Source: Mesoflavibacter profundi (GTDB lineage Bacteria; Bacteroidota; Bacteroidia; Flavobacteriales; Flavobacteriaceae). Taken from it: a stretch of 64,000 nt of DNA. The position numbers and the translations under genes were made by a program. The number at the start of each line of letters is the position of its first letter. The first letter of the stretch is position 1. Of the stretch, positions 25,471 through 48,706 are shown piece after piece. The notes under the pieces are model-generated. The model was given only the letters and a program-made list of their open reading frames with translations, had not been told where the DNA came from and did no database searches. The stretch spans positions 2,647,501-2,711,500 of the forward strand of contig NZ_CP061703.1 in NCBI RefSeq assembly GCF_014764305.1. The letters are read 5' to 3'.

Positions 25471-25473
25471 CAA

Positions 25474-25771
25474 AAGTAAATCGCCTTATCGCTTTATTGT
25501 AATAAAGAGGAAAGTCCGGACACCATAGTGCAATTATAGTGGTTAACAGCCATCCGCCGAAAGGTGAGGAAAAGTGCAACAGAAAGAATGTACAGGTCAT
25601 GCTGTAGTGAAATCAGGTAAACTCTATAAGGTGCAATACCATGTATATTAACGTTTGAGTGCTGCACGTGCGATGTTAAAGGGTAGGTAGCTAAAGTGTG
25701 TTGGTAACAGCACATTCAGATAAATGATAAGGACGCTTTTGCGTACAGAATCCGGCTTATAGATTTACTAT
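25474..25771 (+). ncRNA. rnpB: RNase P RNA (bacterial class A)
   Basis: Catalytic RNA of tRNA 5' processing. The universally conserved core is visible: GAGGAAAGTCCGGAC at 25507-25521 (CR I region), the ACAGAAA-type segment near 25578, and the 3' core ACAGAATCCGGCTTATAGA at 25745-25763. The P1 helix closes the molecule: AGTAAAT at 25475-25481 pairs with ATTTACT at 25763-25769. The length of about 298 nt is slightly shorter than E. coli M1 RNA. It is followed directly by a rho-independent terminator. Confidence 0.95.
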
Positions 25772-25779
25772 TTTATAAA

Positions 25780-43449: not shown

Positions 43450-44742
43450 TTATTTCAATAAGAAACGTTTCAATTCTTCATAAGAACTAATTTTAGTCGC
43501 CTTTTTCTTTTTATCCATGACGCTTAAAATTTGTGGTGGTAATTCTATATTTTCTTTAATAACATCTTCCACAACATCTAAAAACTTGGTTGGATGCGCT
43601 GTTTCTAAAAAGACACAATGCGCGTTTGAATTAGTTTTTAAATAGTCTTTACAGCCTAAATAACCAACAGCGCCATGTGGATCTGCAACGTAGTTGTAAT
43701 CGTTATACATTTCTTTTAACGCTTCGCAAGTGTCTTCATCTGTATAGCTGTAAGACGTTATGTTGTTTTTTAATTCGTTAAAATCTTGATTATAAATTTC
43801 TTGTATACGAATAAAATTGCTTGGATTACCAACATCCATCGCATTACTAATGGTTTGTACAGACGGTTTAGGTTGATAATTTTTGGTTTTTAAAAATTCT
43901 GTAACCACATTATTAGCATTGTTAGAAGCTATAAAATGTTTGATTGGTAAGCCTAATTGTTGCGCCATCATACCTGCACAAATGTTACCAAAATTTCCGC
44001 TTGGAACAGAAAACACAATGTCTTTATGTGAGTTGTGTAACTGTTTATAAGCAAAAAAGAAATAAAACATTTGCGGTAACCAACGCGCCACATTTATCGA
44101 ATTTGCAGATGTTAATTGCATTTTAGACGTTAATTCTTCATCTAAAAAAGCACGTTTTACCATGTCTTGACAATCGTCAAAAACACCATCTACTTCTAAA
44201 GCTCTAATATTTTTACCAAGTGTAGTTAATTGTTTTTCTTGAATATCACTTACTTTTCCGCTAGGATAGAGGATCACTACATTTACACCTTTTACACCTA
44301 AAAATCCGTTAGCAACAGCGCCACCGGTATCGCCAGAAGTAGCTACTAAAACTGTAACTTCATTAGTGTTTTCTTTATTAAAATAACCTAAGCAACGCGC
44401 CATAAAACGAGCGCCAACATCTTTAAACGCCATCGTTGGACCATGAAATAATTCTAAAGTTGAAATTTGCTCTGTAAGTTTTTCAATAGGAAAATCGAAA
44501 GACAATGTGTCTTCCACAATTCGTTTAATTTCGGCTTCAGGAATTTCAGGACTTACAAACTGTTTGATGGCTTCAAAAGCAATTTCAGCGTGTGAAAGAT
44601 TGTCAATATTATCAAAAAAGGATTGTGGTAAAGGCGTTATTTTTTCAGGAAAATAAAGTCCTTTGTCTGGCGCTAATCCTTTTACTACTGCATTTTCGAA
44701 TGTAGTAATTGGTGCTTTTTTATTTAAAGAGTAGTATTTCAT
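43450..44742 (-). CDS. thrC: Threonine synthase
   Basis: PLP enzyme that converts O-phosphohomoserine to threonine. The 430-residue protein shows the long-form N-terminus (MKYYSLNKKAPITTFENAVVKGLAPDKGLYFP, motif GLAPDKGLYFPE), HGPTMAFKDVGARFMARC with the Schiff-base Lys, VLVATSGDTGGAVA and VPSGNFGNICAG. It is the last gene of the thr operon, but unlike thrA-thrB (3-bp gap) it is separated from thrB by 422 bp that hold the GIY-YIG gene and a pair of hairpins. Its expression could therefore be affected by those hairpins. Confidence 0.96.
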   Translation of the reverse strand: MKYYSLNKKAPITTFENAVVKGLAPDKGLYFPEKITPLPQSFFDNIDNLSHAEIAFEAIKQFVSPEIPEAEIKRIVEDTLSFDFPIEKLTEQISTLELFHGPTMAFKDVGARFMARCLGYFNKENTNEVTVLVATSGDTGGAVANGFLGVKGVNVVILYPSGKVSDIQEKQLTTLGKNIRALEVDGVFDDCQDMVKRAFLDEELTSKMQLTSANSINVARWLPQMFYFFFAYKQLHNSHKDIVFSVPSGNFGNICAGMMAQQLGLPIKHFIASNNANNVVTEFLKTKNYQPKPSVQTISNAMDVGNPSNFIRIQEIYNQDFNELKNNITSYSYTDEDTCEALKEMYNDYNYVADPHGAVGYLGCKDYLKTNSNAHCVFLETAHPTKFLDVVEDVIKENIELPPQILSVMDKKKKATKISSYEELKRFLLK

Positions 44743-44857: not shown

Positions 44858-45160
44858 CTAATATTTCCAATCTATAGATAAATCCTTCCATTCTTTATTT
44901 TCTTTTTCGATTAAATCTATTTTCCATTGTCTATTCCAGTTTTTCAATTGTTTTTCTCTTTTTAATGCATCATTTACATACTGAAAATCTTCAAAATACA
45001 TTAATTTGTTTACGTTGTATTTTGCAGTAAATCCAGAAACTAATTTATTTTTATGTTCAAACATTCTTCTTTCTAAATCATTAGTAACACCAATATACAA
45101 TGTTCCATTTTTCTTACTTGAAAGTAAATAAACATAATAATTATAGTAGTTTCCTTTCAA
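44858..45160 (-). CDS. Single-domain GIY-YIG endonuclease
   Basis: A 100-residue stand-alone GIY-YIG nuclease (UvrC N-terminal-like fold). Key residues: YYVYLLSS...TLYIGVTNDLERRMFEH gives the GIY...YIG pair and the conserved Arg; the catalytic Glu is in REKQLKNW near residue 70. The protein ends EWKDLSIDWKY, a usual end for this group. No ATG exists in frame after the stop at 45176; the only conventional start is TTG at 45160, four bases after the thrB stop, which suggests coupling to thrB translation. It splits thrB from thrC and its 3' end touches a pair of REP-like hairpins. Biological role unknown. Confidence 0.88.
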   Translation of the reverse strand: MKGNYYNYYVYLLSSKKNGTLYIGVTNDLERRMFEHKNKLVSGFTAKYNVNKLMYFEDFQYVNDALKREKQLKNWNRQWKIDLIEKENKEWKDLSIDWKY

Positions 45161-45164
45161 TGAT

Positions 45165-46085
45165 CTATAAAATTTTTATGCCTTCAGTATTAATTTTACA
45201 TACGTAAGTATTAAATTCTATATCTGTTTTACTGTACACGTTTTGTATAGCTTTTTCAACGTCTTTTGCTGTTTTTTCGCCTTTACTTAAAGTGAAAATA
45301 GAAGGACCAGAACCAGAAATACCAGTTCCTAATCCACCAGCGTTTATTGCAGCATTTTTTACGTCATCAAAATAGGGAATAAGCTTACTTCTAAAAGGTT
45401 CTACAATGTTATCTTTTAAAGAATGGCTTAATAAATTATAATCGTTAGTGTGTAATGCATGTACCAAACTACCAACATTTGCCCATTGCGATATGGCATG
45501 TTGTAATTCTACTTTTTTAGGTAAAATGGCTCTAGCTTCAGCAGTTTTCACTTCGATTTGAGGATGAATTATTGTTGCAAATAAATCTGCTGGTGTTGGT
45601 AATGACAGTACTTCCAATGGTTGCGTACTTTTTACCAAAGTAAAGCCACCAAAAAGTGCAGGAGCAATGTTATCTGCATGCTCACAACCACTTGCAACAG
45701 CTTCACCTTTCATTGCAAATTCGGTTAATTGAGTAACATTGTAAGGATTGCCTAATAATTGGTTGATAGCAAAAACAACTCCAGATGCACTAGCAGAACT
45801 ACTACCAATACCACTTCCGGGTTTTATATTTTTATAAATTTCAATCTCAAAACCATAATCTGGTTTTGCATCTTGATATATTGCTAAAGCAGCAACGCCA
45901 GCCACATTTTTTTCGATATCAAAAGGAAGATTTGCACCTTCAATTTTTGTGATTTTCAATCCTTTTTCTTTAGTCTTTTTTATAATCATTTTGTCACCAA
46001 TATGATCTAAACAAAATCCAAGGACATCAAAACCACAAGACACATTTGCAACAGTTGCTGGAGAAAAAATAGAAATTTGTTCCAT
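45165..46085 (-). CDS. thrB: Homoserine kinase
   Basis: GHMP-family kinase that phosphorylates homoserine. The 306-residue protein has the N-terminal FSPATVANVSCGFDVLGFCLD, the ATP-binding loop PGSGIGSSSASASG (~90-103) and the C-terminal GTGISGSGPSIFTLS. It is 3 bp downstream of thrA and clearly co-transcribed. Length and motifs are normal, so the adjacent GIY-YIG insertion has not visibly damaged its 3' end. Confidence 0.97.
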   Translation of the reverse strand: MEQISIFSPATVANVSCGFDVLGFCLDHIGDKMIIKKTKEKGLKITKIEGANLPFDIEKNVAGVAALAIYQDAKPDYGFEIEIYKNIKPGSGIGSSSASASGVVFAINQLLGNPYNVTQLTEFAMKGEAVASGCEHADNIAPALFGGFTLVKSTQPLEVLSLPTPADLFATIIHPQIEVKTAEARAILPKKVELQHAISQWANVGSLVHALHTNDYNLLSHSLKDNIVEPFRSKLIPYFDDVKNAAINAGGLGTGISGSGPSIFTLSKGEKTAKDVEKAIQNVYSKTDIEFNTYVCKINTEGIKIL

Positions 46086-46088
46086 AGG

Positions 46089-48533
46089 TTATATGTTTCC
46101 TATTTTAATAATATCAGCAAATAATCCAGAAGCTGTTACATCTGCGCCAGCGCCAGCACCTTTTACAATTAAAGGTTGTTCTGGATAGCGTTGTGTGTGA
46201 AACATCACTATATTATCTTTTCCTTCTAGATTATAAAATGGATGTCCTTCAGGAATTTCTTGTAAGCCAACTTTTGCTTTTCCGTTTTTGTATTCGGCTA
46301 CATATTTTAGTTGGCAATTATTCGCTTTAGCAGACGCATATAACTTTTGAAAATGAGCTTCGTCTGCAATTAAAGTGTCATAAAAATCGTCTACCGAATT
46401 ACTCTCTAAGTTTTGTTTGGTTAAAAAGGATTTATTTTCGATATCCTCAATTTCCATTTTTATACCATTTTCTCTAGCTAAGATTAATATTTTTCTAGCG
46501 ACATCAATTCCGCTTAAATCAATACGCGGATCAGGTTCAGTATAACCTTCAAATTGCGCTTGTTTTACGGTGTCATGAAAATTTTTCTTATCGCTAAAAT
46601 TGTTAAACACAAAGTTTAAGCTACCAGACAAAACAGCTTGAATACTAATCACTTTGTCTCCAGACGCTACTAAGTTATTAAGTGTGTTAATTATTGGTAA
46701 TCCTGCACCAACGTTAGTTTCGTATAAAAAAGGCGCGTTATATTTTAAAGCTAAATCTTGTAGCTTTTTATAATTTGAAAATGTGCTAGAACAAGCAATT
46801 TTGCTACAAGCAACAACTGCAACGCTATGTCTTAGGTATTTTTCGTAGATGTTAGCCACGTCTTCATTTGCAGTAACGTCTACAAAAATGCTGTTTCTTA
46901 AATTAAGCTGTACTACTTTGTTGTAAAATCCTTCTATGCTTGATTTTTCTGCATGATGAAAAGTTGCAGCCCAATTTTTTAAATCAATACCATTTGGTTT
47001 AAACACCATTTTTCTAGAATTAGATAATCCTACAATTCTAACATCTAATTTTAGGTTTTTCTTTAAAAAACTGTGTTGCTGTTTAATCTGTTCGATTAGT
47101 TTTTCACCAACATTTCCAACACCAGTTATAAACACATTAAGTTGTTTGGTGTTGCTTTCAAAAAAGCGTTCGTGTAAAGCGTTTAATGCTTTTTTCACAT
47201 CCTTTTCTGATACAACTGCAGAAATATTTTTTTCTGAAGCACCTTGTGCAATAGCGCGAATATTTATATTGTTTTTACCTAGTGTACTAAACATTTTTCC
47301 GCTAATGCCTTGATGACTTTTCATGTTATCGCCAACTAAAGCAATAATCGATAAGTCTTTTTCTACAGCGATTGGATTAATTTTATGTAGTGAAATTTCA
47401 TAATCAAAAGTTGTATCAATAGCTTTTTTAGCGCGCTCGGCATCTGCGTTGTCAATTCCGAAGCAAATAGAATGCTCTGAAGAGGCTTGTGTGATAAAAA
47501 TTACATTTATTTTTTCGGTAGCTAAAACTTCAAATAAACGCTTGGAAAAACCAGGAATACCAATCATACCGCTACCTTCTAAAGTTAATAACGCAATATT
47601 GTTAATATTACTAATTCCTTTAACCGTATGTTTAGATTGCTGTTCTTGTTTAGTGATAATTGTGCCTTTTGCTTCGGGATCAAAAGTGTTTTTTATGTGA
47701 ATTGGTATGTCTAAATCTAAAACAGGTTGCACTGTTGGCGGATATAATACTTTGGCGCCAAAATGCGATAATTCCATAGCTTCTTGATACGATAAATTAT
47801 CAATAGGAAAGGCTTGTTTTACTAATTTTGGATTGGTTGTATACATACCACTTACATCTGTCCAAATTTCTAATTGGCTTACTTGTAAGGCTGCTGCAAT
47901 AATTGAAGCAGTAAAATCTGATCCGCCACGACCAAGCGTAGTTTGTTCTCCAGAACTAGATTTAGATACAAAACCAGGTAGAATAGTTATGGTTTGATCT
48001 GCGTTTACAAAATAGCTTTTTATGGCTTTATTGGTGACTTCAAAATTTACTTGTGCTCTTGTAAAATTATCATCTGTTGTAATTAGTTCTTGACTATTTT
48101 TTAAAGCTACATTGTAGCCTTTATTTTTCATAGTTTCGGCTATGATAGTAGAGGATAAGCATTCTCCAAAACTTACTAATTTATCTGAAGTTTTAGGCGA
48201 TAATTCGTTAATTAAAAAAATTCCGTTTAATAATTCTTTTAATTGCTGAAGACTATTTTCTAAAGTGGTAATAATCGCTTTTGAAGGTTGTGGTAATAGA
48301 GCACTTAAAGTATCAAAATGAATGGTTTTGATGGTATTAAATGCAGTCTCGTAACCTTTATCCTTATTTTTTGCTAATTGTCCAGCATTAAGCAATTTAT
48401 CTGTAATACCGCCAATTGCAGATACGACACAAATTACATTATCGTCTATAGATTTTTCGTCTAATATGGCAATTACTTTTTGTATGTTTTGACTAGAACC
48501 AACAGAAGTTCCTCCAAATTTTAAAACTTTCAT
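46089..48533 (-). CDS. thrA: Bifunctional aspartate kinase / homoserine dehydrogenase I
   Basis: An 814-residue fusion carrying the first and third steps of the aspartate-to-threonine route. Residues 1-~290 are the kinase (MKVLKFGGTSVGSSQNI, TLGRGGSDFTASI), ~310-455 two ACT regulatory domains (GISNINNIALLTLEG; ISIIALVGDNMK-like), and ~465-814 homoserine dehydrogenase (VFITGVGNVGEKLI, GLSNSRKMVF, EPDPRIDLSGIDVARK). ACT domains suggest feedback by threonine. A Thr/Ile-rich leader peptide and a near-consensus promoter lie upstream (48609-48706), pointing to attenuation as a second control level. Confidence 0.97.
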   Translation of the reverse strand: MKVLKFGGTSVGSSQNIQKVIAILDEKSIDDNVICVVSAIGGITDKLLNAGQLAKNKDKGYETAFNTIKTIHFDTLSALLPQPSKAIITTLENSLQQLKELLNGIFLINELSPKTSDKLVSFGECLSSTIIAETMKNKGYNVALKNSQELITTDDNFTRAQVNFEVTNKAIKSYFVNADQTITILPGFVSKSSSGEQTTLGRGGSDFTASIIAAALQVSQLEIWTDVSGMYTTNPKLVKQAFPIDNLSYQEAMELSHFGAKVLYPPTVQPVLDLDIPIHIKNTFDPEAKGTIITKQEQQSKHTVKGISNINNIALLTLEGSGMIGIPGFSKRLFEVLATEKINVIFITQASSEHSICFGIDNADAERAKKAIDTTFDYEISLHKINPIAVEKDLSIIALVGDNMKSHQGISGKMFSTLGKNNINIRAIAQGASEKNISAVVSEKDVKKALNALHERFFESNTKQLNVFITGVGNVGEKLIEQIKQQHSFLKKNLKLDVRIVGLSNSRKMVFKPNGIDLKNWAATFHHAEKSSIEGFYNKVVQLNLRNSIFVDVTANEDVANIYEKYLRHSVAVVACSKIACSSTFSNYKKLQDLALKYNAPFLYETNVGAGLPIINTLNNLVASGDKVISIQAVLSGSLNFVFNNFSDKKNFHDTVKQAQFEGYTEPDPRIDLSGIDVARKILILARENGIKMEIEDIENKSFLTKQNLESNSVDDFYDTLIADEAHFQKLYASAKANNCQLKYVAEYKNGKAKVGLQEIPEGHPFYNLEGKDNIVMFHTQRYPEQPLIVKGAGAGADVTASGLFADIIKIGNI

Positions 48534-48561
48534 TTATAATTTTTTATGTGAAATAGAAATT

Positions 48562-48592
48562 GTAGTTTTTAAAACTACCTTAAACGGAAGGT
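48562..48592 (-). promoter_or_regulatory. Candidate thr attenuator: alternative hairpins in the thrL-thrA leader
   Basis: In RNA sense the leader after thrL can form GTAGTTTT-A-AAAACTAC (48578-48562), followed by a moderately U-rich stretch, or ACCTT-N6-AAGGT (48592-48588 with 48581-48577). The two share bases 48577-48578 and so cannot both form fully. A further ACCC-GTTA-GGGT hairpin (48617-48606) spans the leader stop codon. The U-run is weak, so true termination is not certain. Confidence 0.45.
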
Positions 48593-48608
48593 GTAAAGAA
48601 GCATAACC

Positions 48609-48656
48609 CTAACGGGTAATAAAAATAGTAGTAATAATTGTGTTTGTTTTTATCAT
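48609..48656 (-). CDS. thrL: Threonine operon leader peptide
   Basis: A 15-codon ORF encoding MIKTNTIITTIFITR, with five Thr and five Ile residues, 75 bp upstream of thrA on the same strand. Thr and Ile are the regulatory amino acids of the E. coli thr attenuator, whose leader peptide is also Thr/Ile-rich. The ATG lies 19 bp after the -7 box of a near-consensus promoter, so it would be the first start codon on the transcript. It is followed by alternative hairpins. The composition, position and promoter spacing together make chance unlikely; translation is not directly shown. Confidence 0.82.
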   Translation of the reverse strand: MIKTNTIITTIFITR

Positions 48657-48675
48657 TTTTTGCATCTATACTTTT

Positions 48676-48706
48676 CAAAAGTATTACTTTTACCCTAATA
48701 ATCAAA
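48676..48706 (-). promoter_or_regulatory. thr operon promoter (Bacteroidota type) with overlapping palindrome
   Basis: TTTG (48706-48703), 19-bp spacer, TACTTTTG (48683-48676): a full match to the Bacteroidota TTTG-N19-TAnnTTTG pattern. The -7 box lies inside a 17-bp perfect palindrome with central G, ATACTTTTGAAAAGTAT (48684-48668), which could be an operator. Confidence 0.7.

Follow-up and report, generated by a model that had tools for sequence, protein, structure and literature searches.

A Conserved Threonine/Isoleucine Leader Peptide without an Intrinsic Terminator Precedes the thr Operon in Flavobacteriaceae and Is Probably a Threonine Sensor

Results

The window, i.e., the whole 64,000-nucleotide stretch of Mesoflavibacter profundi DNA analyzed here, carries a thr operon on its minus strand. 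NCBIfam models identified, in the order thrA-thrB-thrC 3' of the leader described below, thrA (bifunctional aspartate kinase/homoserine dehydrogenase I; 46089..48533; NF006959, 1045.6 bits), thrB (homoserine kinase; 45165..46085; NF002288 and TIGR00191), and thrC (threonine synthase; 43450..44742; TIGR00260). The closest named relative of this thrA is 89% identical. Besides, a 100-aa ORF (MKGNYYNYYVYLLSSKKNGTLYIGVT...) lies between thrB and thrC on the same strand (44858-45160) and shows a weak likeness to group I intron endonucleases, under the curated cut-off. A second aspartate kinase/homoserine dehydrogenase homologue is present elsewhere in the genome (G000:C1:655382-657790; 36% identity across the full length; 1163-aa open frame), and the plus strand of the window contains the bacterial class A RNase P RNA (25473-25775; Rfam RF00010, 196.7 bits).

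The region upstream of thrA, likewise read on the minus strand, begins with a -33 element, TTTG (48703..48706), standing 19 nt upstream of a -7 box, TACTTTTG (48676..48683; consensus TAnnTTTG), and the two together form a full Bacteroidota promoter (48706..48676); the same box precedes the leader ATG in most relatives. A further 19 nt separates the box from an ORF for a Thr/Ile leader peptide, MIKTNTIITTIFITR-stop (48609..48656), which has 15 codons, 5 of them for Thr and 5 for Ile, and lies 75 nt from the thrA ATG at 48533. The original prediction had placed a 15-codon Thr/Ile ORF 75 bp 5' of thrA and 19 bp past the -7 box, with a small hairpin over its stop codon, and we confirmed both the coordinates of the ORF and the hairpin (ACCC-GUUA-GGGU; 48617..48606), which is called H2 below. 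An alternative in-frame ATG at 48665 would add three residues and give a leader of 18 codons, MQKMIKTNTIITTIFITR. The consensus -33 and -7 elements place the leader downstream of the operon promoter, the start position being predicted from sequence. In a random open 14-codon frame of equal base composition, at least 5 Thr codons would occur with p of about 6e-4 and at least 10 Thr and Ile codons with p of about 8e-5; conservation among homologous sequences provides by far stronger evidence for the leader than these chance values.

The thrA upstream regions that we compared came from 110 genomes of the family, nearly all of them single representatives of a genus, and from 80 loci named in GTDB. 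A leader was scored by the fixed rule that the hairpin is in place and at least 2 Thr occur among the last ten in-frame codons. A Thr-rich frame followed by a GC hairpin was found by this rule in 82 of the 110 family genomes and in 59 of the 80 named loci, compared with 59 of 6962 control windows (<1%), the controls including some windows that overlap the leader. In the ten codons (30 nt) before the hairpin, Thr made up 35% of the in-frame residues; the two other frames had 2% and 0%, and shuffled sequences had 6%. All four Thr codons (ACA, ACT, ACC, and ACG) were in use. Since Thr is high in frame only while its four codons vary freely, selection acts on the amino acid, as a threonine sensor needs. 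The Thr cluster sits immediately 5' of H2. The most frequent version of the leader has about 35 codons and an end like TTTITTLWGC-stop; the leaders of the window and its genus mate, and likewise of Olleya, are short. By the fixed rule, roughly one genome in four lacks the leader or the hairpin. Some relatives, several Lacinutrix and Psychroserpens among them, have no leader and carry the promoter directly 5' of thrA. A short ORF rich in codons for the regulated amino acid was thus found 5' of the biosynthetic operon, and the conservation of its frame suggests that it is translated. The promoter-proximal Thr/Ile leader that had been predicted 5' of thrABC is conserved in relatives, and a lack of codon conservation, which would have spoken against it, was not encountered. 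On these comparisons, the leader in front of the thr operon is real and family-wide, and it probably senses threonine.

H2 covers the leader's final Thr codon and its stop codon in the window, and ACCC-N4-GGGU recurs at the same place in homologues: it either spans the final Thr codon together with the stop or sits just 5' of the stop, and most genera have it where the leader ends. Its stem is invariant in 106 aligned unique homologues, although this invariance is partly by construction because the 106 sequences were themselves selected with the ACCC-N4-GGGU pattern. As a genome-wide element H2 was rejected, with 10 sites in the 3.09-Mb genome versus 6 for a reversed control pattern. In another Bacteroidia family (L307, L308, and L313), the stop codon of the thr leader is also accompanied by a hairpin, of the opposite polarity, ACGGG...CCCGU (e.g., ACGGGGTAACCCGT), with the stop within the loop or adjoining it. 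The occurrence of a hairpin of opposite polarity at the same place suggests that the fold counts more than the sequence. Longer leaders have an extra hairpin within the ORF, 5' of the Thr cluster (z of -5 for its own arms compared with swapped ones).

Between H2 and thrA are a pyrimidine motif, CUUCCG (48585..48590), kept as YCUUC/CUCCG in relatives, and an AU-rich hairpin, GUAGUUU-UAA-AAACUAC (H3; 48562..48578), which has no U-run. H3 begins about 28 nt past H2, an interval in which the best hairpin starts in 84% of the sequences versus 21% of shuffles, and it lies mostly 25 to 47 nt upstream of the thrA ATG. Its position is conserved, and its arms vary among genera yet remain complementary. 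Cells changed on both sides of the stem numbered 58 versus a shuffled mean of 21 and a maximum of 34, with related sequences counted more than once; canonical pairs made up 81% versus 32 to 42% with a slid partner, a fraction biased upward because the H3 positions were derived from the same sequences. Of the two measures, the count of both-sided changes is the safer one. These compensatory changes, together with the strong in-frame conservation of Thr, imply selection and make it very improbable that the leader is a relic whose Thr-rich ORF is still translated while regulation has been lost, even though about a quarter of the genomes are without leader or hairpin and the version in the window is shortened.

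H3 was originally regarded as a putative terminator, opposed by a mutually exclusive antiterminator hairpin (ACCUU-CCGUUU-AAGGU; 48577..48592). Under such attenuation of the E. coli type, the position of the ribosome would select between the two. Both hairpins do exist in the window, where the antiterminator stem (48592..48577) and H3 (48578..48562) share 2 nt, and the stretch 3' of H3 is weakly U-rich there; true terminators, GC-rich with U-runs, are found in the Thr/Ile leaders 5' of thrA in other Bacteroidia families (L309, L315, and L318). However, the antiterminator stem (CCTT/AAGG) is not conserved and is absent even from the neighboring genus Olleya. Furthermore, no intrinsic terminator (GC-rich hairpin and U-run) was found between leader and thrA in any of the 106 thr leaders, by a filter that recovered terminators in 27 of 29 his leaders and 28 of 29 trp leaders of the same family, the window's own genome included in both sets. 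The T fraction 3' of H3 was below that of its surroundings (0.38 versus 0.43 in the next stretch). The median predicted probability of H3 was 0.98 when H2 could form and 0.97 when the 5' arm of H2 was masked, with a minority of sequences shifting; H3 is thus predicted to form in all ribosome states, and H2 and H3 are, in the folding model, compatible and not mutually exclusive. When segments were exchanged between species, no strand in the leader or H2 was found to co-vary with H3. Folding, swap tests, and relatives therefore gave no mutually exclusive antiterminator/terminator structures at the thr leader. Reading the element as a classical attenuator is not supported, and we regard it as quite unlikely; the original prediction was right to allow for a readout other than termination, and in the homologues H3 has no U-run after it and no terminator was found.

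Several other candidates were rejected. With partners swapped between species, neither the pairing of leader Thr codons with H3 nor leader-spacer pairing as a switch showed a clear excess over controls, and the match of the H2 GGGG with the pyrimidine motif was no better than chance. A second promoter, TATCTTTG, at the start of H3 in some relatives was neither conserved nor present in the window.

The leader peptides that served as positive controls have distinct features of their own. The his leaders (L206-L235; e.g., MTFIQLHHHHFHTCTQAS) have a GC-rich terminator with a U-run, and their last codons (CTCAAGCG) can pair with the 5' arm of the terminator, forming a compact two-strand attenuator; that of the window's own genome (L212) lies 5' of hisG near G000:C1:2829500. 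Rfam gave no match at the gathering threshold in L212 or L213. The trp leaders (L266-L295; HTWWWN...) have a terminator of the form GGCTTGTC..GACAAGCC-U-run, and the own-genome copy (L283) lies 5' of trpE near G000:C1:368977. Besides, some relatives (L242, L246, and L248) have possible Ile/Val-rich leader ORFs, e.g., MNRQIINIISIIIVVIISHR, at a distance of 220 to 300 nt 5' of ilvD.

Between H2 and thrA, the sequence is strikingly rich in C and poor in G. Its C/G ratio is 2.47 versus 0.98 in generic upstream regions, and for its two parts taken separately the values are 2.0 and 4.9, versus 0.98 and 1.55 in the matching parts of the his and trp leaders; generic 5' UTRs in the group have a ratio of 1.63, i.e., they are generally G-poor. 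The bias resembles a Rho loading region, although as a sign of Rho it is weak and indirect, and composition alone is no proof.

Discussion

We consider it fairly probable, from comparative sequence analysis, that a ribosome-mediated, threonine-sensing leader peptide controls thrABC with a readout that involves neither an intrinsic terminator nor an antiterminator. RNA polymerase would start just upstream, and a ribosome would then translate the leader. When charged tRNA-Thr (perhaps tRNA-Ile, too) is scarce, the ribosome would stall in the Thr cluster 5' of H2 and keep H2 open; when charged tRNA is plentiful, it would reach the stop codon in or just past H2 and depart, and H2 would close. Under plenty, the leader ribosome would be gone and the untranslated 75 to 90 nt would lie open to Rho, with transcription ending before thrA. 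Rho-dependent termination in this C-rich, G-poor stretch is our leading guess for the readout, and a tentative one. It is not obvious that a ribosome stalled farther upstream would protect the stretch from Rho, and the Rho step therefore lacks a clear logic. The stalling, the response to threonine, and the Rho step are all three what we infer.

The leader ribosome might instead act through H2 and H3 on the translation of thrA or on mRNA stability, and not on transcription. This would suit a conserved H3 that has no terminator features and lies mostly 25 to 47 nt before the thrA ATG. Nevertheless, the predicted unpaired fraction of the thrA start was equal in three ribosome states (0.526, 0.524, and 0.531), and pairing between the pyrimidine motif and the thrA start was not above that of shuffled spacers (z of 1.2), so we think control at this level unlikely. 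A model in which the pyrimidine motif sequesters the thrA start (CUUCC paired with GGAGG at codons 7 and 8) was also rejected, as the Gly codon does not track the motif in its third position.

To our knowledge, leader-peptide control has been little studied in the phylum Bacteroidota; older predictions were reportedly made by Lopatovskaya in 2010 (cited in PMC4833913). A literature search, with most subscription journals outside its scope, returned no description of a thr leader in Bacteroidetes. In F. psychrophilum, strong clues for leader-peptide attenuation upstream of amino acid biosynthesis operons have been presented (PMC9723704), in passages that do not specify the operons and do not mention an architecture lacking a terminator. 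The type of sensor is thus known, and what is new is the conserved architecture without a terminator. If our reading is true, one family has two designs of one switch, terminator based for his and trp and terminator-less for thr, and an attenuator that changes its readout but keeps its sensor could be traced in sequence and tested. It would also add a family-wide regulatory RNA missing from Rfam.

Leader-peptide control of thr operons is classical, and the enterobacterial thr operon leader (thrL; RF00506) is a short Thr/Ile-rich ORF directly 5' of thrABC. The element in the window resembles thrL in this arrangement, whereas it has a Bacteroidota promoter and is without a GC-rich terminator and U-run and without an antiterminator. 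The RF00506 covariance model gave no match at the thr leader up to an E value of 10, and no Rfam model had a credible match there.

In the Rho-dependent leader-peptide systems, E. coli tnaC and Salmonella mgtL, the leader ribosome decides on the access of Rho to an untranslated stretch, as it would here. The stall at the thr leader, however, would lie upstream of the candidate Rho site and not on it, and the site in the thr leader is predicted from composition.

Closer to the thr element in lineage, Bacteroid-trp (RF01692) is also an amino acid leader peptide of Bacteroidota, with the same promoter type and in the same genome (L283), and the RF01692 model matches this genome's own trp leader but not its thr leader. 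Unlike the thr element, Bacteroid-trp is a sensor of Trp, and its terminator is strong and carries a U-run (28 of 29). The his leaders of Flavobacteriaceae likewise share with the thr element, in the same genomes, a leader peptide followed by a hairpin past the ORF, whereas the thr element has neither their textbook terminator nor the pairing that its 5' arm can form with the codons at the end of the his leader (CTCAAGCG).

The thr leaders of the other Bacteroidia families (L309, L315, and L318) have in common with those of Flavobacteriaceae a Thr/Ile leader upstream of thrA, and differ in the terminator, which Flavobacteriaceae are without. The terminators in these related families suggest that their absence in Flavobacteriaceae probably reflects a change of readout, in an order of events that we infer. 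The present readout may be Rho or some as yet undescribed way in which the leader ribosome is coupled to the RNA downstream of it, the stop-codon hairpin and the co-varying AU-rich hairpin having replaced, in Flavobacteriaceae, the intrinsic terminator of the related families, a proposal that we hold somewhat short of probable.
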